DNA of 64,000 nucleotides from Pohlia nutans (lineage: Eukaryota; Streptophyta; Bryopsida; Bryales; Mniaceae). Where the stretch lies: contig CM040090.1 of assembly GCA_022496805.1 (NCBI GenBank), positions 13,820,001 through 13,884,000 of the forward strand, written 5' to 3'. Below are positions 1-60,017 of this stretch, in pieces (within the stretch, counting starts at the first letter, position 1; each line of letters opens with the position of its first letter). The notes beneath the pieces are model-generated. The model did no database searches. It was not told the DNA's origin and saw only the letters and a program-made list of their open reading frames with translations. The position numbers were made by a program, and so were the translations under genes.

Positions 1-1034
1 TGACAATATATTTAAAACAATTCATCACAATGGTGTATGTATTATAAATGTCCTTTGTGCACACAGGAAAGAGGATCTAAAAGGGTGGCATGAAAAAATT
101 AGAGGCGGCTAGAAATTTGCTAAATGAATGCTGTAATTTTTGCATATACAACATAACTAACGTTTAAAGAACCAAAAAGTCACGTTCTAATCTTTGTCAT
201 ATTTTTTGGATTTTTACAAGTAAATTTTACCTAGGCCTCAAAAAGAAATCAAATTTATTTAATTTTTCATGAATGCAACCAAATTTGTTCAAAGAGTCTT
301 AACCCTTAAACGCCCACGATGTCGAAAAACGACATTTTGGATGAAGGGCAGAAACTTTGAAGAGCCATAACTTCTTCAGTCAAAGTCCGTTTTTGACGAA
401 ATGACTTGGGTTAGGTCCCAAACCAAGTCTAGTTTGTGTGGTAAAAATTTCAGACCCATACAATGAAGTATGAATTAATGGCATGCATTTTAGTGAAGGC
501 AGCTTTTGTTTTTGGGTTTTCAAACATGGGGCATGTTTTACCATTGCAAGCCAATTAAGTGAAATCAAATATAGTTTTTCATGAATTGTTTTTACATAAT
601 CATAATCTTAAGATGAAATCCAAAAACTTTCTAGTTGGAAGATTTTTGATCCAAATACTTTTGGTATTAGATTTGCAATGATGTTTCTATACATCAGGAA
701 TTTCGGACCCCACTGATTCTGCACTGATTCAGTGCGATTTCCGATATTTCAAGGGTTCGTACGATTTTCGCACTGATTCCGCATCGTTGCGTCATTCATC
801 GCAACTACACTGATATGACACGATGTTCGTACAAGCGGATATAGTATTGATTCGACACGATTGATACATCCATTGAAAACGTATGAATTCAGCACTCTTT
901 ATAGTCGTCAAATGTCGTGTTTTAATCGTCTTTAAAACTACACTGATTCAGTGCGTTTTTCGTGCGACATCATCTTTTCCATATCTAGATTTTATTTTCT
1001 TTTTATATCTAAATTTGATCAAAATAGTGTTATT

Positions 1035-1240
1035 AAAAAATATAAAATATAAAAATATAAAAAATAAAATAATTACTTTCCTCGCTACCTACTTCAACTA
1101 CACGGAAATTGCCCACACGTGCGGTGGGGCCCACCATAGCTTCCCAAGCTCTATCGCCAACAGTGGGATTTGAACTCTTGACCTCCCGGTTGCCAATCAA
1201 GTTCCAAACCACCAAACTACCTCAAACTCTTCATGCATAG
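1035..1240 (-). mobile_element. tRNA-derived SINE
   Basis: Read on the minus strand from about 1240, the sequence has a tRNA-like A box (TAGTTTGGTGG), then about 32 bases later a B box (AGTTCAAATCC), at about 1215-1160. A tRNA-unrelated body follows, and then an AT/T-rich tail at 1078-1035. The order A box, B box, body, T-rich tail is the layout of plant tRNA-derived SINEs such as the Au type. It is not a functional tRNA gene: the acceptor stem and anticodon arm do not fold convincingly. Exact ends and flanking duplication were not resolved. Confidence 0.6.
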
Positions 1241-1264
1241 AATGGAACTCTTTTGGTAATTATC

Positions 1265-1612
1265 GAACTTTTTTTTTCAGGGGACTTTGAATGTTTTTAA
1301 CTATGTGAAAAAAACTTTTTTTCCAATTTTTTTTGCACTAAATTATGCAGGACGTTTTCTATATTTAGGATTTTTTTCATAATTTTTTGAATTTTTGAAT
1401 TTTTTGCCAAAATCGTGATGGCAGATCATGGCTGTGAGCTGTTTTTTTTTTCAGCGGACTTTGAATGTTTTTAACTATGTGAAAAAAACTTTTTTTCCAA
1501 ATTTTTTTTGCACTAGATTATGCAAGACGTTTTCTATATCCAGGATTTTTTTCATAATATTTTGAATTTATTTATTTTTTGCCAAAATCGTGGTGGTTGT
1601 GAGCTATTTTTT
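1265..1612. repeat. Tandem duplication, two units of about 175 bp
   Basis: The block starting with a T tract and GGACTTTGAATGTTTTTAAC near 1269 recurs near 1446 with the same order of landmarks: GACGTTTTCTATAT, a T-rich stretch, TTTTTGCCAAAATCGTG, then GTGAGCT. The second copy has small losses. It lies inside the TA-flanked element, beside the SINE. Confidence 0.75.
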
Positions 1613-2838: not shown

Positions 2839-5189
2839 TATCTTAGGTTGTATGAAAATATCAATAAACTATCTACAATTGACACTAAATGAAGATGTAA
2901 ATTAGCATCAATTATTATAAAACAATGAATGGTTTCATTACCAAATTCATTTAGTAAGTTGATAATCTAAATTGATGAACTAGTCCCAATTGTGCACACT
3001 AAGATGTTTTTTCCAGTCACACATTTTAATGACCGCAATAATAAGATTCATCACTCTCTCACATGGACCATTTAGTGATGGTCCTGGGTTCTCGATATGT
3101 TTTTCCAAATCACCCATTTCAGTAGCTGCAACAATAAGATTTATTGTTGTGTCACATTAATCCCTTGGTGATGATTCTAAATTATTGAAAGCACTAGATT
3201 GACTTGCAATGCATTGCCTTGCACCACTAGAAGGATCACGAAGTGCACACGTTGACCACTTGAAAGAGACATTAAGACTCTTCTCGACCCTTCAATCTTA
3301 TAACTAACTTTATTGTGAGTACATTTTCATTCGAACTAATGCTCTTAGGATCATCAATCATAGCCGGACTGGTGTCTATAGGTACAACTACATGCAATGT
3401 GGGTACAGTCACAACTATGGTCACAATATCAAGGCCCACTAGGCTTTGGCATAGGCGATGGATTTACGTTCGATATACGTTTTTCGTATGTATATTGTAA
3501 AAAAAAAGTACATAATACATATTACAAACATGTAAATTTTATCATGATGTGTTTTTTCATGTTTGTAATATGTTTTTCGTATGTTCTTTATATGATGAAC
3601 ATACGTAAAATTTATGTTGAACGTAATCACCCATGTTTATCTTAACAACATACGTAAAACATTGCAAAAACATGACTTATCAAATTTGTGATGTTCCCCA
3701 TGACTTACAATTTTTTTTTTATTCTCATAAATGATTAATATCATTAAATGTTATAATAAGTTGCATCATATCACACCATGTCACATTTTTCATTCTTCTT
3801 AACATTGTATTCCACTACATTGCATCTTTCATTCTAAGTTACATGATATTGCACTACATTGCACCTTTGATTCTAAATCACATCATATCGCAATTTGTTG
3901 CACCGTTCTTTATAACTTGCATAACATTGCAAGTTATAAAGAAAGGTGCAACGAATTGTAGCCATTTACCATCATAGTCATTTTTTTAATGATATCAAGT
4001 TAACCCTTCATTCTTAATTTGAGCCTTGATTACGTATTACATCTTATTGCAAATCAATGTTAATGATGGCATGTTTACTTACCTGGAACCATTCTTTTTA
4101 TTCATATGATTTCATACTTCATTTCAAAAATTTGAACTTTCCTTTTTGAAATTCCAATGCCGTTTTATTTATTAACCTTTGAATGTCCACTCACATGAGA
4201 GGTCATTTGGAACCAAAAATCCCAACCTAGTATCTCAATATTACTTTTGTAGCCAATATGCTCAACTAGAGCCCTTATTCAAATTGCATTATTTATCTAA
4301 TAGAGTTGTTCATTTGACACACATTGAAACACAAAATCATACATGAACTCATAGACTTATAGATGGTTAAAGTTTTGTTGACTTTGGATAAAGCTCCAAT
4401 TTATAATGTCTATTTCTTACTGAATATTGACTATTTTATGGACGTTTAAGGGTTTAGTTTGACTTTTATTTAAACCAATTCTAGCATCTCATTGGGATGT
4501 CATAGCAACTCGTCAAAAAAAAACATCTTATGATCACTCAAAAATGACAAATGGACCCTAAGTATGTAAGTTGAGGCCTAAACTAGTTTTGACATAAAGG
4601 TCAATATTAAAATTTGAAAACGTCAAAAAATTTAGATGTTGTCCAAATGATTGAGAAATTAAAGCACAACATGCCAAAAAAATTGGTTTACTGAAAGCAA
4701 TTGCTTGCTACAATAATTATTTTTTAAATCGTGAAAATTGGTAAACAAATCCTTTAAAATATTCCATATACCAAACCTCATTTTTCAAAAAACAAAATAA
4801 AATTTGGCACAACTGTGTTGACCATGCCCTCTACCTACACAAATGTGCATTAAATTCTCAGATGAAAGCATAGACAAAAACAACGTTCACGGATAGAAAC
4901 TTGTAAAAAACCATTCAATGTCATGTGATTCAACTTGTACTTGTTTTGTTTAAGAATAGCAACATTGAATTTTTACAATCAAACTTCCATTTCATTTCAA
5001 AAAGGTGTTGACAACCCACATTTACAAATTCCATTCTTTGACTACTGGAAAAATTATGCTTTAAAACCAATCACTACTGACACATAACCATGAACTCATT
5101 TCTTTGTCCCACTAGTTTACATAAATACATTTTACTTCATCCATTTAACACCTACCACTTTTGAGTCCCTACCGAGGTCCCTACCTACA
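2839..5189. other. AT-rich intergenic stretch without recognisable gene
   Basis: No ORF here has family resemblance or consistent splice structure. From 3440 to 3650 there is a degenerate palindromic zone rich in CATACGT and TTACAAACATG. From 3760 to 3960 a loose repeat of CAT(C/T)ATATCACA and CATTGCACC recurs. A compact hairpin is listed separately. The rest looks like decayed repeat. Confidence 0.6.
3891..3958. repeat. 30-bp-arm hairpin
   Basis: CAATTTGTTGCACC... at 3891-3920 is the inverse of ...GGTGCAACGAATTG at 3929-3958, with 28 of 30 positions paired around an 8-base loop. It could be the core of a small MITE or a small-RNA precursor. Nothing in the sequence decides between these. Confidence 0.6.
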
Positions 5190-5192
5190 TGA

Positions 5193-5331
5193 GGGCCTCT
5201 TTACACTCAAGGTGAGAAGATGCGAGGAGAAAAATTTCAACCAATAGGAAGTTTAAAAAACGAGAAGACCAGTTTCTCATTGGCTGAAATTTCTCTCCAC
5301 ACAGCTTCTCACCTCTAGTGTAAAGAGGCCC
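5193..5331. mobile_element. Tourist/PIF-Harbinger-type MITE, 139 bp
   Basis: The ends are GGGCCTCTTTACACT at 5193 and its complement AGTGTAAAGAGGCCC ending at 5331. The 3-bp sequence TGA lies on both sides (5190-5192 and 5332-5334). GGGCCT ends with a 3-bp target duplication are typical of Tourist MITEs. The arms stay complementary inward, including GAGAAGATG/CTTCTC, so the element folds into a long hairpin. Confidence 0.75.
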
Positions 5332-5975
5332 TGAATTCTTAACTGATAAGTTATCTTTCCTTTCAAACCTGACTACACATGTGACCCTGCATGAAATCTG
5401 ATCACGTGGCGCTTTTGATGTCCCTACCAGAATGCCCAAGTACTAATTCTCAATGGATGGATGTCTCCTGTTGTGACTTTCAATTGCATGGTTGAAACGC
5501 CACTACTTTGTTGACAACGGTAGCTCCTGAAGAATGTTTTTTTCTTTCACGGCGTGTGGCGATCGATCGTCTCCTCTCCTCGGGCGCGTCTTTGAATGTC
5601 GTCTCTGAATATTGTTGCAACAACGGCGCGCGTTGTAGGCTAGAAACATTAATTGAACCTCACCTTGACTTTTCAAACGGAGTCGCCGGAGCGACCAATA
5701 TAAATCAGCTCTCGATCGTTACCATTTCCATCATCTCACGCTCAATCAGCTCTCAAATTGGTCTCTCGCAACAATCGTCTCATTCTGTCTTTCAATCTTC
5801 CGCTTTGGAATAGAATTCTCCTGATAATTGAGAACTTTTTCTCGTGTTGTTGATTCACCAATCTGGGCTCCGCTCTTGTACCAATCAGTCTTCCGGTTTT
5901 GCAACAGAGTTCGATCTCCGGGTATTCGGAACTGGTTCAATTTTCTAGTGTTGTGTGTTGATTCATCGATCAGTG

Positions 5976-6708
5976 ATGGCGTCGACGATGTTGTCGTACA
6001 GGGAGGCGTTCGTATTGGCAGATAAGAACACGCTCCGGAGGTGTGAGTCGCTTCTGATGCGGTTGCCGAGGGAGGTAGCAAGTTCTAGACCATCAGTGCG
6101 GAAGCCGATTTGGGTGTTTCTGAAGGGAATTCAGGGGTTCGACGACGCACGCGCTGCGGAGTGTCTGTCGCTGCTTCTCGATGCGCAGTTCGACTCCCTG
6201 AGCATTTTGAAGCTGGCCACCACACAGGACTTGATCGAGGACGCGGGTCTCAGACCTGAGGATGCTCTCGACATCGTTTCTAACGTTGCCAGAATACACG
6301 TCGATACGGTTGTTGAATCCACTCCGGTTGCCGTGTCGACCGGGTTTGCCTTACCCTGGGCCTGTACGTGACACTGGAAGCTTTGGAGAGTTTAGCCCCC
6401 GGGGCTAAACTGGCTTGGGGGGCTAAACCAGGAAGTTTAGCCCCGGCTAAACCCAAATCTCTCCTTTTTAGCCCCGGCTAATTTGTGTTTTAGCCCCGGC
6501 TAGTGGTACAGAAAGGGGGCTAATGGTACAAAAAATTTAGCCCCTCCTCATTTTTCACAAAGTGCAAGAGGGGGCTAAAGAGGGAGCTAAACTACCCCAG
6601 TTTAGCCCCGGCTAAACTGATCAAAGTTTCCAGTGGTGAATCCTATCAGCCTCTGTCAGAGCTGCTCAAGATGAATACTCGATCCCTGAAATGAGTTTCC
6701 GTCGGTGA
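5976..6708 (+). CDS. Unrecognised two-exon gene, about 148 residues
   Basis: Exon 1 (5976-6363) opens with ATG in GTGATGGCG and encodes MASTMLSYREAFVLADK..., then a Ser/Arg-rich turn (REVASSRPSVRK), then a helix-rich part ending with TTQDLIEDAGLRPEDALDIV near residues 85-105. This last part loosely recalls a SAM or helix-hairpin-helix fold, a weak impression. A good donor (GTACGT at 6364) and the acceptor CTATCAG before 6650 join in phase to a short exon 2 ending ...EYSIPEMSFRR and TGA at 6706. Without splicing the frame stops at 6369, in the MITE flank. GC content and codon use rise sharply over exon 1 compared with its surroundings, which supports coding. I do not recognise the family. Exon 2 is tentative, and more exons or pseudogene status remain possible. 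Confidence 0.5.
6372..6635. mobile_element. MITE, 264 bp, rich in TTTAGCCCCGGCTAAA, in the predicted intron
   Basis: The termini are CACTGGAAGCTTTG and CAAAGTTTCCAGTG, flanked by GTGA on both sides (6368-6371 and 6636-6639). The interior repeats the palindrome GTTTAGCCCCGGCTAAAC and variants at least six times, in both orientations. No ORF. Removing the element and one GTGA gives a continuous intron. The superfamily is uncertain. Confidence 0.75.
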
Positions 6709-7748
6709 ATTGTTGTTGAGAGAATTCACTCTGCATCAAGGAACCATGATTGTACCCCATTCCAAGGTAGCAATGGCCACTGGTTACCGATTATTGGTTT
6801 AAGTCACAGATTCTATCTCCCAAAGGAAGCAGCAAGGATACTTAGGATAGATCTCGCTATCCATATTTTAGAGGTGAACTACCCAACAGATTCTTTATCT
6901 TCAGTTAAGGAATAAAACATTGATAGAAATCCTCACGGTCGAAAAAAAAGACCCATGAGAAGACTCCATATGACGAATTAAACTAGTTGTGAGTCTTTTG
7001 GGCTCAATTCTCTTGTTTATGAGGGTTCTACTCGTTGGCATGGGCTTCTGGGATATGGCAGAAGTTGAGTCGACATGGCTAGGTAGAGGTATATATATCA
7101 TGTGCAATATTTAGTGAGCACAACATTCTTTTGACTGCCTTGTGAAGGCAGTCTTGGTTCATTTACCTGGGAATCATTCTTTCCTGTGCCAGGTTTGAGG
7201 AAACTCACAGCCAGGGTGTACATCTTAAAGTTCCAATGAAATCATACATTGTGATACACATTGACAGTCTGTCCCCAATTTTATTCACCGTAATGTATTG
7301 GTGTCGCTAGATGAACAATATCTGTGACCTGCGACACAGGGAGCTCATAATGGTTTCCCTGTGTGCGTTTTCCTTTTAGTCTAACTTTTCCCACCCAGCC
7401 TCAAGAGTTGACACTAGTTAAACTTTCCTTTTAGAAGCAGGTGAGTCAACATTAAATTGGTGAATAAGCAGCTTTACGACTCAGAGGGAAATCACACAGA
7501 GAATCGCATATGAAAAAATGCTTGCGGATGAAAGCGTCGGGATAGCCACGAGTGCTCAAGCGCATGGGCACAAATAGGGGAAATGTTTTTGTCCTTCACC
7601 TTTGAAGTACTAATTTAAATATAAACCAAGGTCCCCACACAAGCTTCTTAAGGGCCCTATTTAGAGCACAAATATCCTCTAATGCCTCTTCCAATTATTT
7701 GTTACGCCTCCTATTCATCGCCACTATTCATCATCTCTTAATCCCTAA
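6709..7748. other. Intergenic stretch, no gene seen
   Basis: No ORF resembles a known family. Small features only: an inverted CTGCCTTGTGAAGGCAG near 7135-7152, and several ACACAGGGA / TCCCTGTGT units near 7335-7365 that resemble the iterated motif of the foldback element at 50.7 kb. The first 100 bases may still be 3' untranslated or further exons of the upstream gene. Confidence 0.5.
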
Positions 7749-8050
7749 GAGCATCTCCACCCATGCTTGCTAAAGGTGACTCGCTAAAATTATTCATCTA
7801 TATTTGAAGAGCCCTTGAAATCATACTCCCCCACCCTTAAACGTCCCTCAAGCACCAAAAGTGCAAGTCAAATAGTCAATGCACCAATCACAAGTAGAAT
7901 GTCAATTCAGTCAACTAAACATAGATTTGGAGGGCCATGATTTCTTGACACGCCAAAGTTGAGGGTCAAGAGGCATTTTTGAAGGGCCCTTAGCATTTCT
8001 CATCCACTTATTGCGTGTGAGACTCTTGGCGCGTATGGGCGGAGATGCTC
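7749..8050. mobile_element. Harbinger-type MITE, 302 bp
   Basis: Ends GAGCATCTCCACCCATGC (7749) and GGGCGGAGATGCTC (8050) are inverted, with TAA on each side (7746-7748, 8051-8053). A 3-bp TAA/TTA duplication points to the PIF/Harbinger superfamily. The interior (GAAGAGCCCTTG ... GTCAAGAGGCATTTTTGAAG) is shared with the elements at 34.2-35.3 kb, which are the same length. Confidence 0.8.
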
Positions 8051-8052
8051 TA

Positions 8053-8554
8053 AAGGACCACAACTATGTTTCCCTTCAAACACTCCAAAGTACACCTTCT
8101 CATAGAAAGACAAATAGTTTTTGATCTAAAACCCTTTTGACCAATTCAACCGTAAGATATTTCAACCAACTTGAATTTGTCACAAGCTACAAATTTTCAA
8201 CCGTTCAAGGTTTTTCAATAGTAAAATTATAAGCTTCAAGGTTGGTTGCACTTTCTTTTTTGACTTGCTCCCCAAGTTTGAAACTTTTTAAAAATGATCA
8301 AATTTGAGACTAACATTTTCATTTTGGGCATTTTCAGAAAGTTTCAAACTTGGGGCAGGTGGACCAAAAAGCAAAGTGAAATCAACTTTGTAGCTTATAA
8401 TCTTACTTTTGAGGAACCTTACACGGTTGAAAATTTGTAAGTGCTAGTAAATTCAAGTTGGTTGAAATATCCTACGATTGAATTGCCTTTTTATGAGAAG
8501 GGGTACTTTTAGGTAGCTTTGGAGTTTTTGAAAAGAAACATAGTTGTGGTCCTT
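8053..8554. mobile_element. TA-flanked foldback element, 502 bp
   Basis: AAGGACCACAACTATGTTTC at the left is mirrored by GAAACATAGTTGTGGTCCTT at the right, with TA outside both. Arms of about 180 bp stay complementary inward (CCAACTTGAATTTG / CAAGTTGGTTG; CTTCTCAT / ATGAGAAG). It abuts the 7.75-kb MITE, sharing its TAA. No ORF. A Stowaway-like classification is an inference from the TA. Confidence 0.75.
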
Positions 8555-11685: not shown

Positions 11686-14109
11686 CTAATTGTTTTCATC
11701 TCGGCCACTGGGCCAGGTCATATTCTTCACTGGCTGCAGTATTTGCTCCATTTGCTGCAGAAGCTCTTCGTCAATCGTGGCACTCTGTTCCACCTCAATG
11801 GCTGTCTTCACATTCTCTCGCACCTGCACACACAAGGTAAAATCCACCTTATTGTTTGCCCCTTTCCAGAATCAAGTAAGGAAGAAAACCCATTGTCGCG
11901 ACTTCCAGTACATCCTATTATGTCTCCATTTTCAAGAGGAGTAAACAATGTCTTATTTTGAATACCATATGAATAAGTTATGAAATTTTAAATTTTTACT
12001 CAGTATGTGAATAAAACCATGGGAGGCTTTGACTTTTCAACTGCTAAACATTATCATAATCGTTAAATAATATATATGTACATAACCGGTTGTTGACTTT
12101 TCAACGCTTACGTGGCTCCATCCCATTGGAAATCCGTCACCATCACCATCACAAGTTGCAACTCATAACCTTCTCTCCTTTCAACTTCCATCCTACGTCC
12201 TTGGATCATGAAGATCAACGGTTGTGATTAAAAAATGAACAACCGGTTATGTACGATAACCGACTCGCCGCTACGCGGCTCGACCGGTTATCTAATACTT
12301 GTTAGGCCTATTTTTTCGCCTACTCATGCTTTTGGGACACTCAGGGAAACCACGTTAGTTGCACAAGTAAGGTCAGTTTTGCCTGTGGCATCAGTCAGTC
12401 TCAATTTCCAATCTAGGCACCACGTCATATCAAGTATATTAAAAGCAGACTTCAGAATTCTAACTCACCACAGCTACTGAGCTCATGCCAACCAAAGTGG
12501 TGGCAACGTTGCGATTCCTCAATGCGTACTGCAATGCGAGTTGGGCGATGCTCTTGCCCTGTGCCTTGCATACCTCAGTTGCCTGAGCACATGCCGCCTG
12601 CACAAGGATGTACAAAAATCAACGCAAAATAACCCCAAATCCTTTTTCTAACACTCAACTTGATTGCCAGTTAATTGCACCAAGTCACATAACCCTCAGG
12701 CACGTCTAGTGCAGATGAAAAATCGACCAAAATCGACAAGTGTCTGAATCAAGAATCATGGCTAGAGAGGAAGAGCCAAAAACCTTCAGTTCTGGAGGAG
12801 CAGGGTGCCACTCGGGGTACCCCTGTCCAGAGAGCAGACCCATGGACATAGGAGAAGCGCTGATTATGCCAACTCCCTTGTCCTGCAAGTAGGGCACAAG
12901 CTCCAGCAAGGATGTGTCGTTGAGGCTATAGTGGCAGTAGGACAGAATCACTTCCACAGCTCCCTTCGGAGTTCGGTCCAACACATATCTGCACAAGAGG
13001 TATTCATTGCATGACAGAACTTCTTACATCCTACATCTACACTAGACGTGGGTCACATGAGATTCACAAAAGTCTCTCCCCACTGATTATCAATTGTTTC
13101 AGTGTTGCTTCAATTGATCAATGGATTAGTACTGAAATGACACTATTTTAATGCAGTTACAATAGTTTCTGGTGCTTTTTCAAATTTTGATCTTTAGCCC
13201 CTAAATGTCTGAACGTGCCGTGGCGACCAGTACAATACAATGTATTTTGGTTGTATTTGGAATGGATCCATTCCTTTAATGGGCTTCAGTTTAGAAGAGA
13301 AGTTGAAATTAAGATCAATGTTGTTCGAATGAGATATTAAGATCCGAATTTAGAGTTTCTTGTTGGTAGCAAATCTCAATTATACGACAACCTATATACT
13401 ATCCCCATGGGACGTTTAAGGGTTAAACACGCTAAAAAGGCACTTTTGTGTGTGCAAAAATAGTAATCAGTGGGAAGGAATTTTTGGGGACAAGGACTCA
13501 ATAACTGACCTGAAAACGTGAAGAGGTAGGCCGCTGATGCCAATGTGCCTGACTTTGCCGGAGTCCTTAAGCTTTTGTAGTGCCGGTACCGTCTCGTTCA
13601 CAATCTGATCAAGAGACCCGAACTCGATATCATGGCACAGAATAATGTCTACGTAGTCGAGATTGAGGCGCGCAAGGCTCTCGTCCACGCTGCGAGTCAC
13701 CCGCTCTGCACTGAAATCGAATCCAGAACCGTACCTGCCGCACTTGGTGGACACCACATAGCTCTCCCGAGGGATGGGCATCGTCTTCAAGGCTTTTCCG
13801 AGCACCGTCTCTGCCAATGTGTCTCCGTAGTACCTGTCGACAACAACAAATAAAGATTTCTATTTAGTCAGCATTTACATTATACACCTCAGTCAGAGCG
13901 AATTGATTGCAAGCATGGAAGAGGAAACAAGGAACCTACGGGGAGACGTCGAAGTAGTTGATGCCCAAGCGAGCAGCCTCGTGAACGGAGGCGATGGCAT
14001 CCTCTTCCTTGACGTTGCCGAAGACATTGCCCAGAGGCGAGCCTCCAAAGCCGAGAGACGTTACCCTCAATCCTGTCGCTCCCAGCTCCCTCAACCCTAA
14101 ACCTGCCAT
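11686..14109 (-). CDS. L-galactose dehydrogenase (aldo-keto reductase), 5 exons
   Basis: This cytosolic enzyme oxidises L-galactose to L-galactono-1,4-lactone with NAD in the plant ascorbate pathway. Exons on the minus strand are 14109-13940, 13833-13510, 12988-12784, 12597-12469 and 11823-11686. All junctions keep phase and total 321 residues, against about 319 in Arabidopsis. The N terminus is MAGLGLRELGATGLRVTSLG, followed by FGGSPLGNVFG and the AKR Asp/Tyr region NYFDVSPYYG (split by intron 1). The protein continues with STKCGRYGSGFDFSAERV, the AKR signature with catalytic His (CHDIEFGSLDQIV), LSYCHYSLND, GVGIISASPMSMGLL and the C-terminal LVGMSSV and NMTWPSG. An in-frame upstream start-like codon at 14196 is less likely, since family similarity begins at 14109. 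The intron 3 donor (GTTTTT) is weak. Introns 2 and 4 carry MITEs. The frame is open throughout and looks functional. Confidence 0.95.
12078..12254. mobile_element. Small inverted-repeat element in GalDH intron 4
   Basis: GTACATAACCGGTTGTT at 12078 is exactly complementary to AACAACCGGTTATGTAC ending at 12254. The CCGGTTAT motif also recurs at 12262-12295 and near 54.9 kb, so it is a dispersed family. No clear target duplication was seen. Confidence 0.55.
13198..13422. mobile_element. TTAA-type MITE, 225 bp, in GalDH intron 2
   Basis: The left end is TTAG then CCCCTAAATGTCTGAA; the right end is ATGGGACGTTTAAGGG then TTAA. The body (GTATTTGGAATGGATCCA, TTCTTGTTGGTAGCAAAT) matches the elements at 27694-27918, 27086-27307 and, in reverse, 30758-30982. 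The left TTAA has decayed to TTAG, so it is older than the 27.7-kb copy. Confidence 0.85.
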
Positions 14110-15549: not shown

Positions 15550-16400
15550 TTAACCCTTAACTTCCTGGGCGAGTCGCTCTATTTTTAAAACCGAAAATAT
15601 CTTCAAGGAGTGCCCGAATGATTCAAAATTTGGGCCAATTTTGTGTAGAAACGAGTTAGCTATCCAATGGTGTAGTCTGATTTGGAGAAATGCACATTGT
15701 CAATTTTACAAAAATCCACAAGTGTTGGGTGGTCACAAAACTGAGGAAGAAAAGTCAACAAAAGAGAGTGACGGGCGAATGACAAGCTGCCACGTATTCC
15801 AGTTGGGCAGGGCGGCTTGTGGATGGATGTAGCTACTAAAATGCAAATCTTCCACTTGGATTTCACCTTTTTCCAAAATTCTTTTTCCTACTATATGTGT
15901 TATTTTGTGTACTTTCAACCTACCATGTCTGATTTTAAAATGGAAGATCAAATTTGTAGGAAGTTGTAAGATTTCTCTCATAGTCACAAGTGAAGTAGTA
16001 AAAAGTGGATGTCATGTCAAGGCCTCTTTCTCACTCATTTTTTATCCTAAAAATACAAAACTTGTTGTCATGCGTAGGGAACTTGATTATCTTCAGAATT
16101 CCAGACGGCACCAACTTTCTAAAATAGTATGTGCCCAAGAAAGTCGGTCAAAGCTCGTTTTCAGCAGTGAGAAAACAATGAATTTCTTGGAGTACCTTTC
16201 ACTTTTGTGTCCCATCCGAGCAACCTATAACTCAGATTGACACCAAACTTTGTAAAGATGAAGGTGACTTGCATATCTACAAGATCTTACGGTTGATTTT
16301 GTAAAAAAGTGAACTACATAAGTTTGAGCCACATGTATCCCTAATCGAAAAAATCAGGGTCCAAAACGCGCTGAAAATGGTTCAGGAAGTTAAGGGTTAA
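15550..16400. mobile_element. TTAA-flanked element, 843 bp
   Basis: Left TTAA then CCCTTAACTTCCTGGGCG; right TTCAGGAAGTTAAGGG then TTAA. The inner CTTCCTG/CAGGAAG match extends the inverted ends to about 14 bp. The body encodes nothing recognisable. Both TTAA copies are intact. Confidence 0.8.
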
Positions 16401-18050
16401 GGTAGAGGGCTCTAAAGCCACTACAGTTCTAAACCTGCACTCAATTATGGACGAACATTTTGAAATTTTGGATGTACACATGGTGAAAAACACCACTTTA
16501 GAACATATGTCATTTCAACTTCAGAAATTCATTACTAATTTTAGGAATATCCAAATTCTTTGATTCAAAATATGTTGGTCTTTGCTTGGATTTGTCTTCT
16601 AATGAAAAATCATGCTCAATTCTCCCTATGTCCTCATAAATTCACAGCCCTTAAAGTGGCGGGTTTAGAGCCTCCTACCTTACTACTTTTTCACTTGGAT
16701 GTTGGTTTCAAGATTACATCATGCCTAATTTAGAAAGTAGTAAGGTAACTGTACCTTAAAGCATTCACCTTACCAATTGAGTCTATTTACACACATGAAA
16801 TAGAAAATATTTTCAGTGGGTCTTAATAGCAAGTTCAAGAGGATTCAAACACACTTTAGCATGCGTTATTTGGACACCGTATGAATAAGTTATGAATTTT
16901 CAAAGTGCTAACTATAGGTTGACCTTAAAGCGACCCTAAACTCTAATGTTGAGATTGTGCACATTCTCATTAACAATAGGATGTCAAAATTCTATTTATT
17001 GTGAAAGATTGAGCTATGCGCGCTTTAAGGAAATGGTCACTTTTAGGTATAGTTACCTTAGTAGTAGTACTAAAATTGTACATCATAATTTCAAATTTTG
17101 ACGCCCTCTAATGTTCCCTTCTAACATGGATTCTAAATGCTATGGTTGTTATGTGTGTTTTAGGGGGTCTCAAGACATGATACCTGTCACTTTTGCATGC
17201 AATTGTTGGTTTCAGAATCGCATTAGGCTTGATTTTAAAAAGTAAACCAAAATATTACATCACAATCTCAAACTATGACACCCTCTAATAGTCCCCTCTA
17301 TTTGGGAATCATTTGGTCATGGATTCTAAATGCTATGGTTGTTAGGTGTGTTTTAAGGGTTCCATCAATCAAGACATGATATGCATCACTTTAGCACGTG
17401 TCAAATATGGTAGATTTTGAAGCGGCATATCTATTCATTTAAGTAGAATCCTCCATCTTCCTTTTAAACATTCCCTTGCTAATGGTCACTTGAGCATATA
17501 TCCTAATCCAATTTTGAAATTCATTCATTTACAAATAATTATATTTTTAGGGTTGATATTCTTTTCCAAGACATATCCCTTCCGTTTCATAATGAGAGTC
17601 CACTTTGCCGAAAATTTTAAAATTTAAGACAGAAATAAAGCCCATGTTGAAAAGGATGAAACGCAACAACTTTTAAAACCGTGTATCTCGATGAAAAACA
17701 AAAAATGTCAATGTAGGAAGGAAACACAATGAATGTAAACTCTTAATGCAAAAAAATATGTGATTTTGGACTCTTATTATTGTATGAAACAAAAGGAGTA
17801 GTATAATAAAAAAATTGTGTATACACTTAAATTTATTTTTGCACATGTGATCATTCTAAGGTGGTTACCCCATTCCCAACTAAATAAGAAATACAGATAT
17901 GAGAAAAAAATTCATTTAGTATCATTATTTTTTAGAGTTAGGCAAGAAAAAATAGATTTCAACACAAGTTGAAACATAATTTTTGGAAGAAGAATAAATG
18001 AGTTATAAATTTTCAAAATTGAAGTATGACACATCCTATTCACGTCACAT
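16400..18050. repeat. Decayed repeat region with two repeat families
   Basis: AGGTAGAGGGCTCTAAA at 16405 is mirrored by TTTAGAGCCTCCTACCTTA near 16663-16682, so a roughly 280-bp MITE probably ends there; a related end occurs at 40950-40970. The body from about 16770 (CCAATTGAGTCTATTTACAC) to 17060 is colinear with 37310-37540 plus 38490-38530. It is the uninterrupted relative that proves the insertion at 37.5 kb. The rest (17100-18050) is AT-rich with a local duplication of TTCTAAATGCTATGGTTGTT (17130, 17325). No gene. Confidence 0.6.
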
Positions 18051-18051
18051 A

Positions 18052-21877: not shown

Positions 21878-22058
21878 TCTCTTAGTTCAAAATGAAACAA
21901 AAGTGCTCTTGAAAAAATCAACTCATAAAATTATGTTATATTTACACTAAAAGACTTTATTCATTCTATTTGGATTACACCAAAATCACCATATACTGTG
22001 GCTCACGGTATTCAAAACCATCGACAGTGAATTTGACTCATCTATAGAATAGATTGAG

Positions 22059-42702: not shown

Positions 42703-45700
42703 TCACTTTCCACTTTTGCTAGAATTCTTGGCAGATGGATCAACTAACTTTATGCCCATTGCTCCAAGCAAATTCGAAGCTGGTCCAGGCATTCCCTCTT
42801 GATTCATGAAAGATTGCAGTAAACTCGTCACCAAATTGATGTCCACATCCACAATCCCCTCGTCATCATCCCCTTTTTGTTGCGCCTTACCACTTGCCTG
42901 CAATCACAAATCAACACATTAGCCCACTGTTTATTTTTGCTTTCAAGTCCAATAAGAAAATGGAGCTCATCAAGTCTAGTTTCCACTTCATGAAGGGGTA
43001 AAAGCATCGTGAATTAGCCCCTAAAAGACCAAGAAGCAGGAATTGGGCCTCATGTATTATTAAGCACTTTTGAGCAGGTCCTATGTAAACTTTCTTTTGT
43101 TCAAAATTATTTGTTTTCTGACTAATGTTTTTCACCGATTCTGGTAATTAAAAATTTAGTTCCGTGTGAAATATATTTTTCATAATATGATCGATTAAAT
43201 TTGTCATTTTCAAACCATAAATCCTTGGTCCTTTAGAGACGCACAATTGAAGGACGAATTACCTTAGCTGACTCATCTTTCACGTCGGCAGTAGTAAAAC
43301 TCTTGGCAAGACTTGACTGTTGCAGCTCGTGTTGCAGAGCTTCAGAGTACTCGTCCATGAAGTCACCGCTAGCTCCTGACGTGCTTGCAGTCTCATTGAC
43401 AACACCCATACTGCTACTGGCCCTTGATTCATCAACGTCGTCAGCAGCCATTTCTTCATCCAAATCATCTGAGTAGGATACAAGTGAACCACAAGACCCA
43501 GAGTTAGTGAATGATTAACAAGCTGAAGAAAAAAAAAAAATCGACACATCATATAAATTTCTGTCTGTGTATGAACATGAATCTCTGCTGTGTATGTCCA
43601 CAATTCACATGAAAATTTCAGTGACAGCAGTTCAACCATTCCCTCAGAAATGTCCTTTTTGTGTTCATTCTTCTCCATCTCAATGAAGTAGCAAGTACCA
43701 GACTCAGATTCCCAGTCGGAATCGTCCTCCTTCACATCTGCGGCTGCACTGGTTCCCAATGCGGACTCCAATTCTTCCATAAACCTTGACATGTTTATCG
43801 AAACAGCTTCATCTGTGCAACCAAAGCATAACAATACCAGAGAGTAAGCAAGCCAGGATCATGCTGTTACTAGTACTTTGGCCAGCTCTAAGCAGCCACA
43901 AAAAAAACCCTGTATTCTTTCAAGTAAGGAGCTGAGAACACTGAAGACTAGGATATGCTCCTCACCACCAGGCAATTCAGCACCCTCGTAGCTCGAGATC
44001 TTGCTCATAAATGCTTGAATGCCATGCACCAACTCCTCAGGATCATAAAGTGGTTCATTAGCCGTTCCTCCTGCCTGGGCATCACCATTATCTCCCTCTG
44101 GATTCGGCCGCATTCCTCGTCTTGACTCATGTGCATCAATCTCCGCTTGTCGTTCATGAAGAGCACTGGTCAAATCGTCCTCTCCATCGTACAACCATGC
44201 ATCACTGTCACTCTCTGGTAAAGAGCCGCTGAAATCAGCTGCAGTATGTTGCAAGGTAAGGATATCCTTGACCCGCTTGATAGGGGTTCGCATAGCTGCA
44301 CTGTGGAAAACCACGTCATATGATTATTACCTGATTTGAGTCCCATTGCCCTTGGAATGAGATCAAGGAATGAATCAAAGTGACCAGTAAAAAAAGGTAC
44401 GACCACCGCACAATATCTAAGGGTTGAGTCACCAAAAGCACATACATAATATGAATCAAACTGTAGAAACAGCTGCGTCAACAATTGAAGAAATTGGACT
44501 TGATCATACTTCAAGTGGCAAATCATCAGCACGTCTGCCAAATCCCAGATTCACATGATTACTGAGAAAAAAATAAAGAGTGGTACCTTGTTGCGGCAAA
44601 TGAACGTGTTCGACGGTAATCCGCAATTGCGGCTTGAAGCAGCTGTTTCTGCTCCTTGGATCCCTCTAGAAGATCCCGGAAGTAGCCACTCTTTTCCAAA
44701 CTTTTGCGGTACGCTTCCCAGCCGGGATCCCCAACAGGGGCTTGCTCCAGAATCCCCCCTTCTGAGGTAGACAAGAGTAGAAAATTAGAAATCATTATTA
44801 ACTGCAGAAGGAACCACATACAGAGGTGGCCACCAAAATGTAACACGCGCAAGATCTTCGCATGCAAGAAAAAGAGCATCAATCTTTATCTACATGTTAA
44901 CTTGGACAGAAGCTCTAACGGCCAGAGAAAATATCTGTAAAAAGGAGATTGGGACGCACCGGCTCTCATATCAACATCATTGCCCTCAAATCTTTGACGC
45001 TCCCAGTACATCATCTCAAAGCCGCAAGTGAGCTTCATGCCAAGCTCCGCTTGCTTGTGCTTAGGATCTGCAACCGCCGGCATGGGGTACTTTCGAGGAG
45101 GGGCAAACATCTGTTGGTGGAGTTGCGCATACATGGCTCGTGACATGGTTACCAGAATATCAAACATTTCACTGTTTGATCCTGCGTCACCAAATGCAGA
45201 ATCACAACCATAACCCTCATGGCTTGCCACCTTCACAAATTTATTCATGGCTTGCTTACAGTTAGCAACTCAACACGAACTGAATGAGCTTTGCTTTCAA
45301 TCAACTCCGTAGCCTAAACCTGAAAACCTGCCTAGGGGTTCGCCATTCATAACACTTTAGGTAATACACGAAATTTTCCCGTGGTTGACAGACCAAACAA
45401 TCGTGCGAATTACGGCTTGAGGTTTCAGGACATGTACACAAATGGCACTTCCACAAAGGTATTCATGGTTTGCTTACAATTAGCAACTCAACACGAACTG
45501 AATGAGCCTAGCTTCGAAAAAAGCTAAATCGCCTAAACCCTAAACCCTGCCTAGGGGTTTCGCCATTCATAACACTTTAGGTAATACACGAAATTTTCCC
45601 GTGGTTGACAGACCAAACAATCGTGCGAATTACGGCTTGACATGTATACAAGAAACAAGGTCTCAATTTCGACACAATACGATCAGCCAGAGTAAACGCA

Positions 45701-47736: not shown

Positions 47737-49277
47737 TTAACCCTTGGACAAAATGGGCAGTCACTACTATTTGGGCTGCGACCAGAAAATGGTCAATTGG
47801 TCACTTAGGAGTTAACCCCTGAAGAACCTAGGATCCTTGAATTTAAAATGACAAATTTAATCGAGAAAAATATAATGCAGATGGGTACAAATTTTATATC
47901 ATCAGAATATCATCAGATCTTAGTGAAGAACATTGCATGTGTTGATCGAAAGACAAATTTAAATAAGAACATTGCATTTGTTGATCGAATGACAAATTTA
48001 AATAAAAGAAAGCCTACTCAAAATTGCTATAAAAAAACATGAAGCCCAATTTGGGCTTCTTGGTCCTTTGGGGGTTAATCCTTTAGTGCCCAGCAAACCA
48101 CATTATGGTCACTACAACGTCCGAAATGCAATTAGCAGAGAATTCGTGAAAAATTGGAACATCAGTTTTGAAGTTCAGATTTGCTCACATACATTACGTA
48201 CCTTCCAGAAAAAGAAATTTTCAATTTGGAATTGTACAACTATCAAAATACCTATCAACAGAACGCGAAAATATTGCAAATACTTGAAAATACAGTAAAT
48301 ACTTACAAATACAACATATGTATTGTGTAGTATTTCTTGTGTTTGGAAGTTTGTTATCTTGTTTTATTTTTTTGGATTGTCTTCTCTTCTTCATCTTCCA
48401 TTAGTGTGTGTAATCCGATCTTGACTAATGTACCCACTCCTGTCAATTTTCAACGTATAAAATTTTGTCCTAAACCGTACATGGACAAGTCACTTTCACT
48501 TATAAATCTCACAATAATTATGTGTGAGTCTATTTTTGATATGAAAGATTGCAACGGAGAGGTGTTGACATAGGGCATAGCTGAACTTCTTTGCTTTTAT
48601 TTTTGAAAATTTACCTCAAATCATATTTAACTTTGAAGTCACACACCCCCCAAAATCTCGTTTTTGAGCGTGCATTATACAGTTCAAATACATACTATAA
48701 TCTTCCGATCCCACCATCGGATGATTCTCAAATTTTAACCCTTATAGGTCAGTAGGGGACCATATATACGATCACATATCTTACTTTTAACATACAGAAA
48801 ATGTACTGAAATTTAGCAAGACATACACCTTTGGATTGAATATTCTTCAACTAACATCTTTCATTTGGAGGTCCTTTAAATACCTCATCCTTATCATGCT
48901 CAAATACGACACCATATATGTAGAATACATGACCATTTTGCAACTTCTAAAGCAAGTAGTAGGTGCAATAATGATCTAAATCAAAATTGTCATGTGTCAT
49001 TGGATCGGGCTCAACACAAGTACAAACTTTCGTAACTAGAGTATACATCAATTCTTACACTTTGTATGTCAAATACACAAAAAATACCATGTTGCAACCC
49101 AAATGTGGCTTCTCAGATCTTTAAGGGTTAATAAAATGTGTGCTCTCGAGTTGAGAATAGAATTGTACGGTTACTTTCTAATTTAACCCATTCTATTTTT
49201 GGTAGTCTCAACCACAGTGAAAAAATCTACTGAAATCCAGGGCTCTGAGCTACAGTACCCTGGGCACTAAAGGGTTA
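47737..49277. mobile_element. Chain of TTAA-type elements sharing TTAA sites, with one nested
   Basis: TTAA sites at 47737, 47812, 48075 and 49274 separate three consecutive units. The first is a 71-bp unit starting CCCTTGGACAAAATG. The second, 47816-48074, is of the GGACCAAG subfamily (CCCCTGAAGAACCTAGGATC to TTGGTCCTTTGGGGG). The third, 48079-49273, is of the TTTAGTGCCCA family and ends GGGCACTAAAGGG. The third is opened by 48739-49127 (CCCTTATAGGTCAGTAGGGG to TCAGATCTTTAAGGG between two TTAA). None has an ORF of note. Confidence 0.78.
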
Positions 49278-49344
49278 AGAAGTAAACACACAGCGAAACA
49301 GTGACAGATCATCTTCAACCTTGAATCATCGATGTATGAACATT

Positions 49345-50516
49345 CTAGACACAAAGCACCAAATACTTAAAACGCCTCAGTACAAAATTGAAATAACAAG
49401 CTTCATCCTCGATACACCTGCAAGATAACGTGTGAAACTCAGCATAGTAGGGCATCCTCTCCACCACAATAGCCAACATGAAAGCCACAATTGTCATGGT
49501 TGCTTTTGGGTGGTGAACTATCCATTTCTTGGCCTCCAACACGGGCAGCACTATGAAATCAAATCTTCCAGGTTCACGTGCTGGCCGTGGAGCTGGTGCT
49601 CTTGTAAATGCCCTCTTGAACCAATTCAATACTGCCCCCTCCATGCCCAAATCAATCGTCAGCAAAGAATCTGAACAAACTTTTTGTATCTAAGTTGTGT
49701 GATCAAGCTCTAGACTTGTCAACCCCTAAAGGACCAAGGATTCATGGTTTCATAATGACAAATTTAATTGATTGTATTGTGAAAAATGCAATTCAACTGG
49801 GGCCAAGTTTTATATCATTGGAATCAGTGAAGAACTTTGTACATGTTGGTAAAAGCATAAATAAATTAAGTCCATACAAGACTTGCTCAAAAATGCTAAA
49901 AAAAAAAAACACATGAGACCCAATATGGGCTTCTTGGTCCTTTAGGAGTTAAACAACAAAGTCAGAATCACTAGACTCCCAAATGCAAGAGGCATAAAAA
50001 TTCATCAGTCAACAACCGGGTCTATTCCAGGGCACAAAACAGATAACCCTAAAACATCCACTTCAGTATCATCAAGTTGTTTTTTCAAGTAACAATAACT
50101 TAGAATGGTAAGGAATGCACCATGGATATAAGTTCATGACACAAGGGGGAGAGTAGTCTTGCACCAATGGCCCTTTGTCCGGTGGGCATTGGCTCATTGT
50201 CAAGACAAACAGACACTTTATTCACGCCGGCCTCAAAAGAGGACCGGAGTTTATATCTATCTTCATGCCACAAATAACACAAGTTTAGAACAATTGGTGA
50301 TATTTCACAGGAATGGATACATTAAAGGTCATTACGACGTTGTGATTTGGTCGGTTGCTTTGCAGCTTCCGCTGCAGCAAGTGTCACTTCGCCTTCGTCC
50401 CGTGATTTCCTACTCGACTCCTCTTGTCCAGCTTCGACATGAGAAAATCTTCTCATAAAATTCTGGATCGGAACAAGCTCCTCTGCTGAAGGGAGTTTTT
50501 CACTCGACTGTGCCAT
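49345..50516 (-). CDS. Tentative two-exon gene, single-pass membrane protein
   Basis: Exon 1 (50516-50336) encodes MAQSSEKLPSAEELVPIQNF, then a Ser/Arg/Glu-rich hydrophilic part. Exon 2 (49670-49345) follows a good acceptor (TTGTTCAG). It encodes LGMEGAVLNWFKRAF, a Pro/Arg-rich turn, FDFIVLPVLEAKKWIVHHPK and a membrane segment ATMTIVAFMLAIVVE before RMPYYAEFHTLSC. The chosen donor (C-GTAATG) is mediocre but keeps phase, and exon 1 is otherwise open. The protein would have 168 residues. Exon 2 could instead start at its own Met (GMEGAV), or splice again after HTLSCR (GTGTAT). I do not recognise the family. The intron contains a TTAA MITE and the first part of a dispersed repeat. Confidence 0.4.
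49719..49952. mobile_element. TTAA-type MITE, GGACCAAG subfamily
   Basis: Left TCAA then CCCCTAAAGGACCAAGGATT; right TTCTTGGTCCTTTAGGAG then TTAA. The body is colinear with the copy at 24985-25214. Confidence 0.85.
50155..50265. repeat. Dispersed repeat, inverted copy at 56.76 kb
   Basis: AGTCTTGCACCAATGGCCCT through GGTGGGCATTGGCTCATTGT, CACGCCGGCCTCAAAAGAGG to GGAGTTTATATCTATCTTC is the complement of 56762-56878 with few changes. The first 25 bases also recur at 21585-21609. In the antisense frame both long copies read RSSFEAGVNKVSV.LDNEP, with conserved frame, so a former coding sequence or an element end is possible. Confidence 0.7.
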
Positions 50517-51986: not shown

Positions 51987-52313
51987 TTACAGCCAAAATC
52001 TCCAGGTGGTGTTCTTCGACTTCGCCACTCGCTTCCGAGGAACCCTAACCACAAGGAGTTTCCCATCGGATTCCTTGATAGTGATGCGCTCGTAATCGCA
52101 GCACTCATCGGAGTTGACGAAGAGCCTCTTCCGTGCATCACTCGTGCCCTCCACCATGAACTCTTGGTAGGTCCAATCCATACAGAGCTCCATGGCGTAC
52201 TCGCCGCCTATTTTCACACTGGCGAGTCGACAGAAGCAATTCCGCCCGCCGACTTTCATTCTCAGCGGCTGCTCTGTCTCGTTCACGATCATGGTTGTCA
52301 CCTTGGTTGCCAT
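51987..52313 (-). CDS. Small conserved protein, paralogue 1 (108 residues, single exon)
   Basis: Starts at ATG 52313 (the in-frame extension has only GTG): MATKVTTMIVNETEQPLRMK. Shared with paralogue 2: TTMIVNETE, MKVG.RNCF, AMELC.(D/N)WT(Y/F)QEF, VNSD(E/D)CCDYERIT and a WRFW end. Five Cys, including the CC pair, and two strongly alternating hydrophobic segments suggest a compact beta-rich soluble domain; no signal peptide or membrane segment. I do not recognise a named family. Conservation of frame, of the C-terminal WRFW and of spacing between two copies 8 kb apart supports a real gene. Surrounding DNA is duplicated too. Confidence 0.72.
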   Translation of the reverse strand: MATKVTTMIVNETEQPLRMKVGGRNCFCRLASVKIGGEYAMELCMDWTYQEFMVEGTSDARKRLFVNSDECCDYERITIKESDGKLLVVRVPRKRVAKSKNTTWRFWL

Positions 52314-52579
52314 CTTCACAAAGTGGAGCCTCTTGGATGATTGAGGTGAGCTATTGCACTGTGGAAATTTGAAATCGCGATTGAGTGATTCCTAGCAGGA
52401 ATTGAAATGGAAACCAAAGGAAGATTGCGGACACTGAATTGAAGAACAGATTGTGAAGGAATGATTGAAGTCGAAAGCGGAGTACCATCACTGGAAGGAG
52501 AAGCGACGCTTCTGACTGCCGTTGGAGGTACTCTTCAGTCGGAAAGGACACAACAGACAAATTAAAGTGTTGCTTGTCA

Positions 52580-54135: not shown

Positions 54136-54376
54136 TTATTTCCTAAAGGACCAAAAAGCCCAAATTAGGTGTCATGTTTTTTTAAGCAGTTTTGAGTAGG
54201 TCTTGTGTGAATTTCCTTTCTTTTGAATTTATTTGTATCTTGACCTACACATGCAATGTTCTTTACTAATTCCGGTGATATAAAATTTGGTCCTATTTCA
54301 ATTGTATTTTCCGTAATTTATGATTGATTGGATTTGTCATTTTAATACCATGAGCCCTTGGTCCTTTAGGGGTTAT
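54136..54376. mobile_element. TTAA-type MITE flanked by TTAT
   Basis: Left TTAT then TTCCTAAAGGACCAAAAAGC; right CCCTTGGTCCTTTAGGGG then TTAT. GGACCAAG subfamily, reversed. The same TTAT on both sides may be a variant target rather than decay. Confidence 0.78.
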
Positions 54377-57807: not shown

Positions 57808-58609
57808 TGTACCAATGGTAGATTCCCATTGACTCCCCTTTGTCATACCAATTGCATTGTTCATCTCCTTTCAAGGATTTCCACTCAATTTCCGAGCATT
57901 GTAGTGTATCGACCATTTGAAAAGGTTTTTTGAACCTCCTGTTTTATTAAAATAACTTTTGAATAGCCCTCAAATTTGACCTTGGTGGACCCACTTGGTC
58001 TCCAGCTGTTGGGCATATCACTAGAAGGAGAAGGCGTCGCTTTTCACTCGGTAGGTGAGTCAAATGGCCCCACTTAGCACTCACAACTGAACCGCTCAAG
58101 ACTTGGTGAATTTGATTTGTCACGTAGGACAAATGTGTACAATGAACTCTGACATTGTTTTGAGTGAGAAGTGACGCCTTTGCTAGTAGTGTACCACTAG
58201 AATGAAATGTGTTGTTTTTCACTTACTATTATAAATGGAAAAGAAATGAAACAGCGCCATGCACATGGGCTCTGTTAGTGCCGATGAGTAGTTTTGGTCA
58301 CAAGAAGACAGAAACAAAAGTATAATATTCTGCCACTATTCACTGTTCCCACGAAATGAGGAACGAAAAAACGACAGGTTTGCTACCAGTGTAGTCTTAT
58401 GGAAGAAAGCAATGAAGTGAGAAAGCTTCAAGATATGAATGGGCAAATTCCCATGCCGACTATGTACCATTTTGTAAGGGAAAAAAAAAGCAGTGTCACT
58501 CGATCACCGCCTTTCTAGAGGATAACTAATTGGACTAGACTGATGATGCACCAGAAATCGTGCAGTAGAATAAAATTGATGCAGAAAGTCGATCTGCTTT
58601 GCTGGAAAG
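57808..58609. other. Duplicated non-coding segment
   Basis: 57808-57906 matches 52836-52932. 58400-58466 matches 54377-54441 (CTTCAAGATA, ATGCCGACT). 58576-58609 matches 56068-56100. No gene. Confidence 0.5.
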
Positions 58610-58904
58610 CATAATTGGGGGGTGTCTAAATCCCCCCATCGAGCGTGGCTTGGAGGCCAGCTTCGGAGGGGGTGGCAGGGGTGGGGTAAAACCTGCCCCC
58701 TATTTTTAAGTTGAGTAGAGCCCTACTTGATCTCAATGGGGCTCCCAAGGGTAATTTGAGGCTGCAGGCCCCAAATTTTCCAAAAAAAAAAACCAAAAAA
58801 AGTCCCCAAGTGGTCAAAATGGGGAGGGCCAGAAAAATGAGCCCAACCGAGCCTAGCATCCGAGCCACGCTCGATGGGGAGAAATAAAGAGACCCACATA
58901 ATTG
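58610..58904. mobile_element. Insertion of 279 bp with 8-bp target duplication CATAATTG
   Basis: CATAATTG lies at 58610-58617 and 58897-58904. The duplicate locus at 56100-56107 has a single CATAATTG followed directly by CCACG. The insert has inverted inner motifs (CCCCATCGAGCGTGGCT and AGCCACGCTCGATGGGG). An 8-bp duplication fits hAT or Mutator-type elements. Confidence 0.82.
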
Positions 58905-60017
58905 CCACGCTCGATCGCGAATGGACCACCCTGCATCATTCGAGCAGTTGACAACGGATCCCTCGACACGTGATTGTCATGCAGGATCACAATTGCACGG
59001 CAGGAAGATCGATGATCCAAAGACTGTCTGTTTTGAGCAAGCAAGCAGACTGAGGTCAGCAGACGACTCGCAAGTTATTTTACGGAATTCAAAACCCTAA
59101 GTTGCAACTTCTGGTAAAGCTCGTGTGGCATGGAAAGTCTAATTGCGGGCGCTCATAGCACTATAGTGGAATAGTACTGGTATCTGAATCACTTAGATGT
59201 AGCCGTGAATACTTTCATTAATCACATGACTATCAGACATTGCAAGACGACGGTACTTATAACCGACTTTCTTCTGCTCTAAACTGTTTTATTAATTCAT
59301 TGTGGATGTGTAATTGTGTATACACTAGTGGAACCCGTGCCGTTGAGCACATTGAGCTTGGGTTGTCTCCTTGACAGATTCCAGCGCAGAACGGTCGAGT
59401 GAGATAAACCAAGTTGTATTGTATAATAGATTGCAGCTGTGCGCTATGGAATCCAATGGATACTTATGATTAGGAAAACAAGCGAATCAATTAACTTAAT
59501 AACCCCTAAAGGACACATTTGGCCTCATGTGTTCTTAGCAGTTTTGAGTAGATCTTTTGTGGACTTCCTTTTTGTTCAAATTTCTATGTTTCTTGAACAA
59601 CACATGCAATGTTCTTCACAGATTCCAGCGATATAAAATTTGAAATCTACTTTTCACAATGTGATCAATTAAATTTTTCTTCTTAAGAACATAAATCCTT
59701 CAAGGTCCTTTAGGGGTTGTGCTCAAAAGCAACACTGGCAGGTAATACATCACTGTACTGTAGTAAAATATATTGTTCCTTGTGTTGTGTTCTGTACAAT
59801 AATCAAAACTGATGCAGAATGATCCGATTCATGCAACGTTGAATCTTTATAAGTTTCCACCGCATATATACTACACTCAGTCTAGGTCGCATGACATATC
59901 ACCTATATGTGAAGAAAGCTACTTATTGATACGTTTAATAAATCTTGTAAGAATTACGCACTTAGTTTCGACAAATAGTGAATTTGCGTATCCCTAATAG
60001 TACGCTATTAACTACAA
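58905..60017. other. Duplicated segment, then a TTAA-type element, no gene
   Basis: 58911-59150 continues the duplicate of 56108-56345. 59503-59716 is a GGACCAAG-subfamily relative (CCCCTAAAGGACAC to CAAGGTCCTTTAGGGG) whose target copies have decayed to ATAA and TTGT. TCCTTGACAGATTCCAGCGC at 59369 recurs at 62160, a short dispersed repeat with GAACGGTC(G/A)AGTGAGA. Confidence 0.6.

Follow-up and report, generated by a model that had tools for sequence, protein, structure and literature searches.

Which transposase has moved the many short non-coding elements, with inverted ends of the type CCC(C/T)TAAA and TTAA or nearly so on each side, that are found in a 64,000-nucleotide stretch of the genome of the moss Pohlia nutans? 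This stretch, here called the window, is a part of contig C6 in an assembly of 697.8 Mb and 332 contigs. A first-pass annotation of it had proposed that a piggyBac-like transposase lies behind several subfamilies of miniature inverted-repeat transposable elements (MITEs) in a plant, and the transposase loci and empty sites described below support this. The superfamily is best known from animals. We conclude that the elements of the window are very probably non-autonomous members of the piggyBac superfamily, including MITEs, which are moved in trans by the transposases of autonomous-type elements of 5–6 kb in P. nutans. The conclusion is based on the similar TTAA-CCCYTAAnnGYC ends, the single TTAA at homeologous empty sites, transposases with a triad of aspartates (DDD) inside elements of this kind, and the existence of near-identical copies. 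The assignment to the piggyBac family is firm.

The first-pass annotation listed sixteen elements. Fifteen of these each consist of one element whose inverted ends pair with each other and start TTAA-CCC(C/T)T or similarly; the TTAA flanking them on both sides is exact or differs by one base. The sixteenth, 47812–49277, had been mispaired: its ends belong to different families, and two abutting elements are present there. The 12-mer TTAACCC(C/T)TAAA or its complement is found 14 times in the window, compared to 0.03 times on average and at most twice in 200 dinucleotide shuffles. The shorter word CCC(C/T)TAAA occurs 29 times, directly preceded by TTAA in 14 cases and by a one-base variant in seven. 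Three elements with a single mutated flank allowed a clean comparison, and in each case TTAA stands at the empty site of the duplicate chromosome; at least some of the one-base variants are therefore decayed TTAA sites.

Transposases and Full-Length Elements

It had been anticipated that a PGBD-type transposase flanked by TTAA-CCC ends would be encoded elsewhere in the same genome, and this is the case. Among 1,305 candidates, at least 116 matches to the Pfam domain DDE_Tnp_1_7 were scored, all above the Pfam cut-off. They have E-values from 1.6e-81 to 3.1e-74 and are spread across contigs C1 to C22, and part of them carry in-frame stops. No DDE_Tnp_1_7 domain was found in 14 control genomes. 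Twenty of the copies, chosen for the most part among the highest-ranking ones and not at random, were fetched with their flanks, and both TTAACCC ends were found at 13 of these loci, giving element sizes of 5,035–5,968 bp. The pairs of ends were identified by the likeness of 24 bases at TTAA sites for 12 loci, and L035 was added by alignment to L025. For L024, L025, L026, L027, L030, L034, and L035, copy-to-copy alignments stop at both TTAACCC ends and the flanks differ. L025 and L035 are located on different chromosomes with different flanks; over 5,038 bp their identity is 99.4%, which puts their divergence well below the synonymous divergence (Ks) of the duplication.

The transposase matches piggyBat (4.4e-26) and Trichoplusia ni (T. 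ni) piggyBac (5.6e-20) among the sequences in the PDB, and the three catalytic aspartates are aligned. Alignment showed that the DDD triad is kept in 18 of the 20 fetched copies, and that 16 copies combine the triad with a domain free of stops. A pattern-matching count of the catalytic residues (11 of 20) was dropped in favor of the alignment since it missed spelling variants. Ten copies with long translations, one of them shortened by a stop, have Cys/His-rich C-termini; no Pfam zinc model scored above the cut-off in the five transposases scanned. Both T. ni piggyBac and piggyBat target TTAA, have a CCC terminus, and carry a C-terminal cysteine-rich domain. The moss enzymes have the same transposase domain and the same aligned triad as T. 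ni piggyBac (PDB 6x67) and Myotis piggyBat (PDB 9c0f), while the moss elements differ from these two in their size of 5.0–6.0 kb and in a module found upstream of the transposase in 14 of the 20 loci. The T. ni element is given as 2,472 bp in a passage of PMC10803768.

Ends Shared by Full-Length Elements and MITEs

When 24 ends of autonomous elements were compared, all were found to have G at position 14, and 22 have C at position 15 and 22 at position 16. All 24 also start with CCC, partly by choice, since at L025, L027, L029, and L036 the TTAACCC pair was not top-ranked and was chosen for its CCC. In 30 MITE ends, T9 is invariant, G14 is found in 87% and C16 in 83%, and the ends start with CCC or a one-base variant; about half of them carry T in fourth position rather than C (CCCTTAAA). 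The two end profiles are alike, but not identical.

A 577-bp TTAACCCC element of the piggyBac type is specific to contig C5 (C5:12185802–12186378; L060 3403–3979). Its termini match both ends of transposase loci: it has 20 of 20 terminal bases in common with L040, and a stretch of 101 bp is 76% identical to the other end of L036. In addition, its left 338 bases are 90% identical to part of the interior of L029, which may be a nested copy. The MITEs of the window are matched to the sampled full-length elements by short end sequence only. That the window MITEs might be simple internal deletions of the sampled autonomous elements was also considered; no such relationship was found in the comparison.

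Empty Sites on the Duplicate Chromosome

The homeolog of the window is found on C5 near 12.18 Mb and is 97% identical over a 761-base probe. A 24-kb part of it (C5:12182400–12206400) and one flanking locus were compared with the window, covering 11 of the 16 elements originally listed. By the first-pass annotation, flanks without TTAA duplication at empty orthologous sites would have spoken against its proposal; the sites on the duplicate chromosome speak for it. Elements 13194–13426, 25719–27452, 27690–27922, 28422–28774, and 30754–30986 are absent from C5, each with exactly one TTAA left, and 27082–27311 is nested inside the absent element 25719–27452. The 577-bp element constitutes a reciprocal site, present on C5 and represented by a single TTAA on C6. 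Duplication of the TTAA target is thus seen at five homeologous empty sites and one reciprocal site. Three elements, 24981–25218, 29482–30277, and 36875–37215, are present in both homeologs.

Paralogous empty sites were sought by means of joined flanks, which gave 38 candidate pairs. Contiguous paralogs where four bases replace the element were found for L029 and L036, both full-length, for L034:6348–6895, and for 48735–49131 and 30754–30986 in the window. Insertion and precise excision are indistinguishable site by site; either way there has been TTAA-specific mobility since the copies separated. The first-pass annotation had described the transposase as one that was or is active; of this, what the data show is mobility since the separation of the two chromosome copies.

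The comparison also revealed differences of other kinds. A Tc1/mariner-type element at 17857–19899 with a TA duplication is absent from C5, where a single TA is found at the site; it encodes DDE_3 and a Tc3-type helix-turn-helix (HTH) domain in two separate frames (18284–19333, minus strand). A 218-bp insertion at 12079–12296, with ACCGGTT-type inverted ends that are not piggyBac-like, is also absent from the homeolog. Two further C6-specific insertions, 20025–20377 (0.35 kb) and 37305–38529 (1.2 kb), are without TTAA-CCC ends. A 3.4-kb C5-specific insert (5027–8474 in the joined L060 and L061) lies inside the common element 29482–30277 and has GGTTTAGG-like ends.

Genome-Wide Abundance

The element density was taken from a genome-wide pattern count. 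Exact TTAACCCYTAAA sites number 109,650, while the same pattern in reverse occurs 1,163 times. The window has 14 exact words per 30 ends of its 15 confirmed elements, and scaling the genome sites by this ratio suggests that the genome holds roughly 100,000 piggyBac-type elements, a figure that is an estimate and not a count. The window is about 1.4 times denser in exact sites than the genome mean.

The 233-bp MITE at 27690–27922 has 3,756 candidate places in the genome. The best 40, the window copy included, were scored, and all match at least 231 of the 233 bases, the other 39 at 92–95% identity. Twelve copies, again including that of the window, were fetched; being the best matches, they lean young and towards the query. 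Eleven of them matched end to end and one is a base short, the mean pairwise identity is 96%, and ten have exact TTAA on both sides. By eye, the 20-base flanks of the twelve look unrelated.

A Conserved Module Upstream of the Transposase

In the 14 loci mentioned above, some 120–150 conserved residues are encoded upstream of the transposase and on the same strand. This module has a motif like LNESYL..LPRL..LLGW..RR.EG and is in two pieces in L024, L027, and L042 and partial at the edge of L031. It was not recognized in L025, L035, L037, L038, L039, and L043; in these six loci the module either is lacking, so that it is not universal, or it has diverged or lies outside the fetched stretch. The module occupies an open frame separate from that of the transposase, and it is therefore either a first exon that is joined to the transposase by splicing or a second protein.

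No Pfam match to the module was obtained for the four copies scanned, one of which gave a weak proline-rich match outside it. Neither a sequence match in the PDB nor a Foldseek match at E 0.001 was found. The predicted structure has a helical core (six sequences, mean pLDDT 74, pTM 0.66), and 13 unnamed relatives were found.

Relatives of the Moss Transposases

When one moss transposase domain was compared with about 5.8 billion proteins, 141 matches were obtained, of which 120 were listed. Among these listed matches, all 14 that have an organism name are from animals, at 26–34% identity; closer, unnamed ones reach 64%, and one partial match is 94% identical over 47% of the query. For a rapid maximum-likelihood tree, the 67 listed matches with 380 or more residues were combined with all 20 moss copies, leaving aside the remaining 53; the tree has no root and contains long branches. 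A branch with an SH-aLRT value of 100 separates the moss copies, together with 12 unnamed proteins, from the 12 named animal proteins in the tree and 43 unnamed ones. The deep branching argues for several old sub-lineages among the moss transposases. Both a long residence in plants and a transfer would fit this unrooted, long-branched tree. Scans for viral and prokaryotic relatives of the transposase, which reach close relatives only, gave 22 and 30 pattern-matching stretches, respectively, none of which was confirmed.

MITEs have likewise been described from coral, in a paper that by its word counts deals with piggyBac and TTAA (PMC2872659); here the host is a moss, and the copy number is estimated to be of the order of 100,000. 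Among land plants, the piggyBac label also appears in a repeat table for the fern Ceratopteris, with 1,230 PiggyBac fragments totaling 122 kb and printed as 0.00% of the assembly (PMC6890710). Unlike what is seen for the moss elements, the passage in question describes neither a transposase nor ends (PMC6890710). Elsewhere, parts of papers state in passing that piggyBac is present in "plants," or use it as a vector (PMC13325672), and the relevant part of a moss paper from 2017 treats it as an insect-derived tool that was at that time untested in Physcomitrella (P. patens) (PMC5505980). The word piggyBac has zero occurrences, by word count, in the text of the P. nutans genome paper (PMC9247546). 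The genome size stated there is 698.20 Mb, in 22 chromosomes and 313 scaffolds, and in another place 699.88 Mb with 362 scaffolds (PMC9247546), so that the totals of the assembly analyzed here differ slightly from the published ones. A word search of the open-licence literature found no paper naming both piggyBac and bryophytes; six papers there, at least two of them on moss, name piggyBac and mosses. An earlier description elsewhere is possible.

Mechanism and Alternative Explanations

In the piggyBac reaction the transposon ends form hairpins, insertion takes place at TTAA, and excision is seamless and restores the TTAA. Judged from the sequences, the most likely mechanism for the elements of the window is such an ordinary cut-and-paste reaction with the MITEs served in trans. 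The 5–6 kb elements encode the transposase and would produce the enzyme, the moss transposases would act on the CCC ends by the known reaction, and the same transposases would then serve all the MITE families of the window.

Several observations weigh against this interpretation. Between the window MITEs and the 13 sampled full-length elements, no more than stretches of about 14–30 bp and no interiors are shared, and at position 15, where nearly all the autonomous ends (22 of 24) have C, the MITE ends have T in half of the cases and more often than C. Seven of the 20 transposase loci have one recognized end or none; two transposases lack one catalytic aspartate, and two others have in-domain stops. 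Elements 15550–16400, which the homeolog lacks, and 22059–23004 sit in larger indels when the homeologs are compared and have no clean empty site. Furthermore, the paralogous empty sites, as opposed to the homeologous ones, read TTAG, TTGA, TAAA, GTGG, or CAAA, and never TTAA.

The piggyBac elements could be bystanders if the MITEs were moved by Kolobok or another TTAA-targeting superfamily. Kolobok elements have a THAP-type transposase and also use TTAA, so the target duplication alone is not unique to piggyBac, and the short length of the sequences shared by MITEs and autonomous elements would fit such an origin. We nevertheless find it very unlikely, because MITE and autonomous ends have CCC, G14, and C16 in common and because the termini of the 577-bp C5 element match piggyBac transposase loci. 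TTAA, and partly CCC, were used in choosing the autonomous ends, while positions 14–16 entered only through the likeness of the two ends of an element. Somewhat less improbable, but still doubtful, is the idea that the differences between the homeologs reflect precise excision from C5 and not insertion into C6. As scarless excision restores TTAA, every site fits either direction. The decayed TTAA on C6 beside an intact one on C5 fits insertion at least as well, and with excision the mobility would be no less TTAA-specific and no earlier than the separation of the copies.

Contamination of the assembly with animal DNA would agree with the animal names of the listed relatives, but can hardly be reconciled with the rest of the evidence: the MITE at 13194–13426 lies between aldo/keto reductase exons, in a window that also has a plastid NdhM gene; transposase matches are found on C1 to C22; the elements differ between homeologs; and the nearest named matches listed are at most 34% identical. 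Nor is it credible that interstitial telomere repeats of the plant type (TTTAGGG) gave rise to the CCCTAAA words and were mistaken for transposon ends. One telomere-type unit is indeed contained in CCCCTAAA, but T takes the fourth place in about half of the MITE ends, and the words are paired at the ends of TTAA-bounded elements that as a whole are absent from the homeolog.

Elements and Genes of the Window

The listed outer elements occupy 10,876 of the 64,000 bases of the window, nested foreign repeats counted in. The family names A–D were coined in this analysis from sequence comparison within the window, and no strand is assigned to the elements. Family A consists of the MITEs 24981–25218, which has CCAAGG ends, 49719–49952, and 54136–54376, together with 47812–48078, which is the left part of the mispaired 47812–49277, and two degenerate copies, 43013–43236 and 59508–59719; the former of these was absent from the first-pass list. 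The copies 49719–49952 and 54136–54376 are recognized by their ends as well as by family comparison. Family B comprises four MITEs: 13194–13426, 27082–27311, which has a related copy in L043, 27690–27922, and 30754–30986, which has CTAA and TTAA flanks and whose diverged paralogous empty sites read CAAA.

The non-autonomous family C element 29482–30277 has CCCTTTAGTGCC ends, and its C5 copy is split by the C5-specific insert. A partial copy is found at about 31053–31688. A third copy, 48075–49278, abuts 47812–48078 at a common TTAA, with a probable start at about 48075, and holds the nested element 48735–49131; a diverged paralog of this region, 31606–31776, is without the nested element and has GTGG at the target. 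In family D, 25719–27452 is swollen by nested repeats, and the MITE 28422–28774 is a short form of it. The remaining elements are 299–2838 (2.5 kb), where TTAA-CCCTTAAA ends were read directly and other repeats inside were identified by comparison, the 851-bp non-autonomous element 15550–16400 with long matching inverted ends, the 946-bp non-autonomous element 22059–23004, whose ends were read directly, and the MITE 36875–37215 with 25-bp near-perfect inverted ends.

The genes of the window include those encoding a plastid NdhM subunit, SGT1/ecdysoneless, an aldo/keto reductase, and two DUF7748 proteins. One of the two aldo/keto reductase exons flanking 13194–13426 scores just under the Pfam cut-off. 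The two DUF7748 genes, 51990–52391 and 60021–60407, are both on the minus strand and about 8 kb apart. ARAGORN called a tRNA-Ser at 21961–22051 on the minus strand, eight bases from the element 22059–23004; Rfam gave no match to it at gathering scores, nor to any other part of the window.

Implications

These piggyBac elements stand out by their host, by their scale, by full-length copies that seem intact and recent, and by a module without a known match. The roughly 110,000 exact ends, together with the near-identical and seemingly intact copies, show that piggyBac can come to occupy a considerable share of the genome of a land plant. That the named relatives among the matches listed are all from animals makes one ask by what route the clade came into the lineage. 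We regard it as evenly balanced whether mosses, or a wider plant lineage, have a long-standing piggyBac clade of their own, apart from that of animals and still moving, in which the enzyme is accompanied by a new helical module as an N-terminal exon or a second protein. If this is true, the clade would be a main builder of the moss genome, and plants would have a source of their own for scarless transposition at TTAA.

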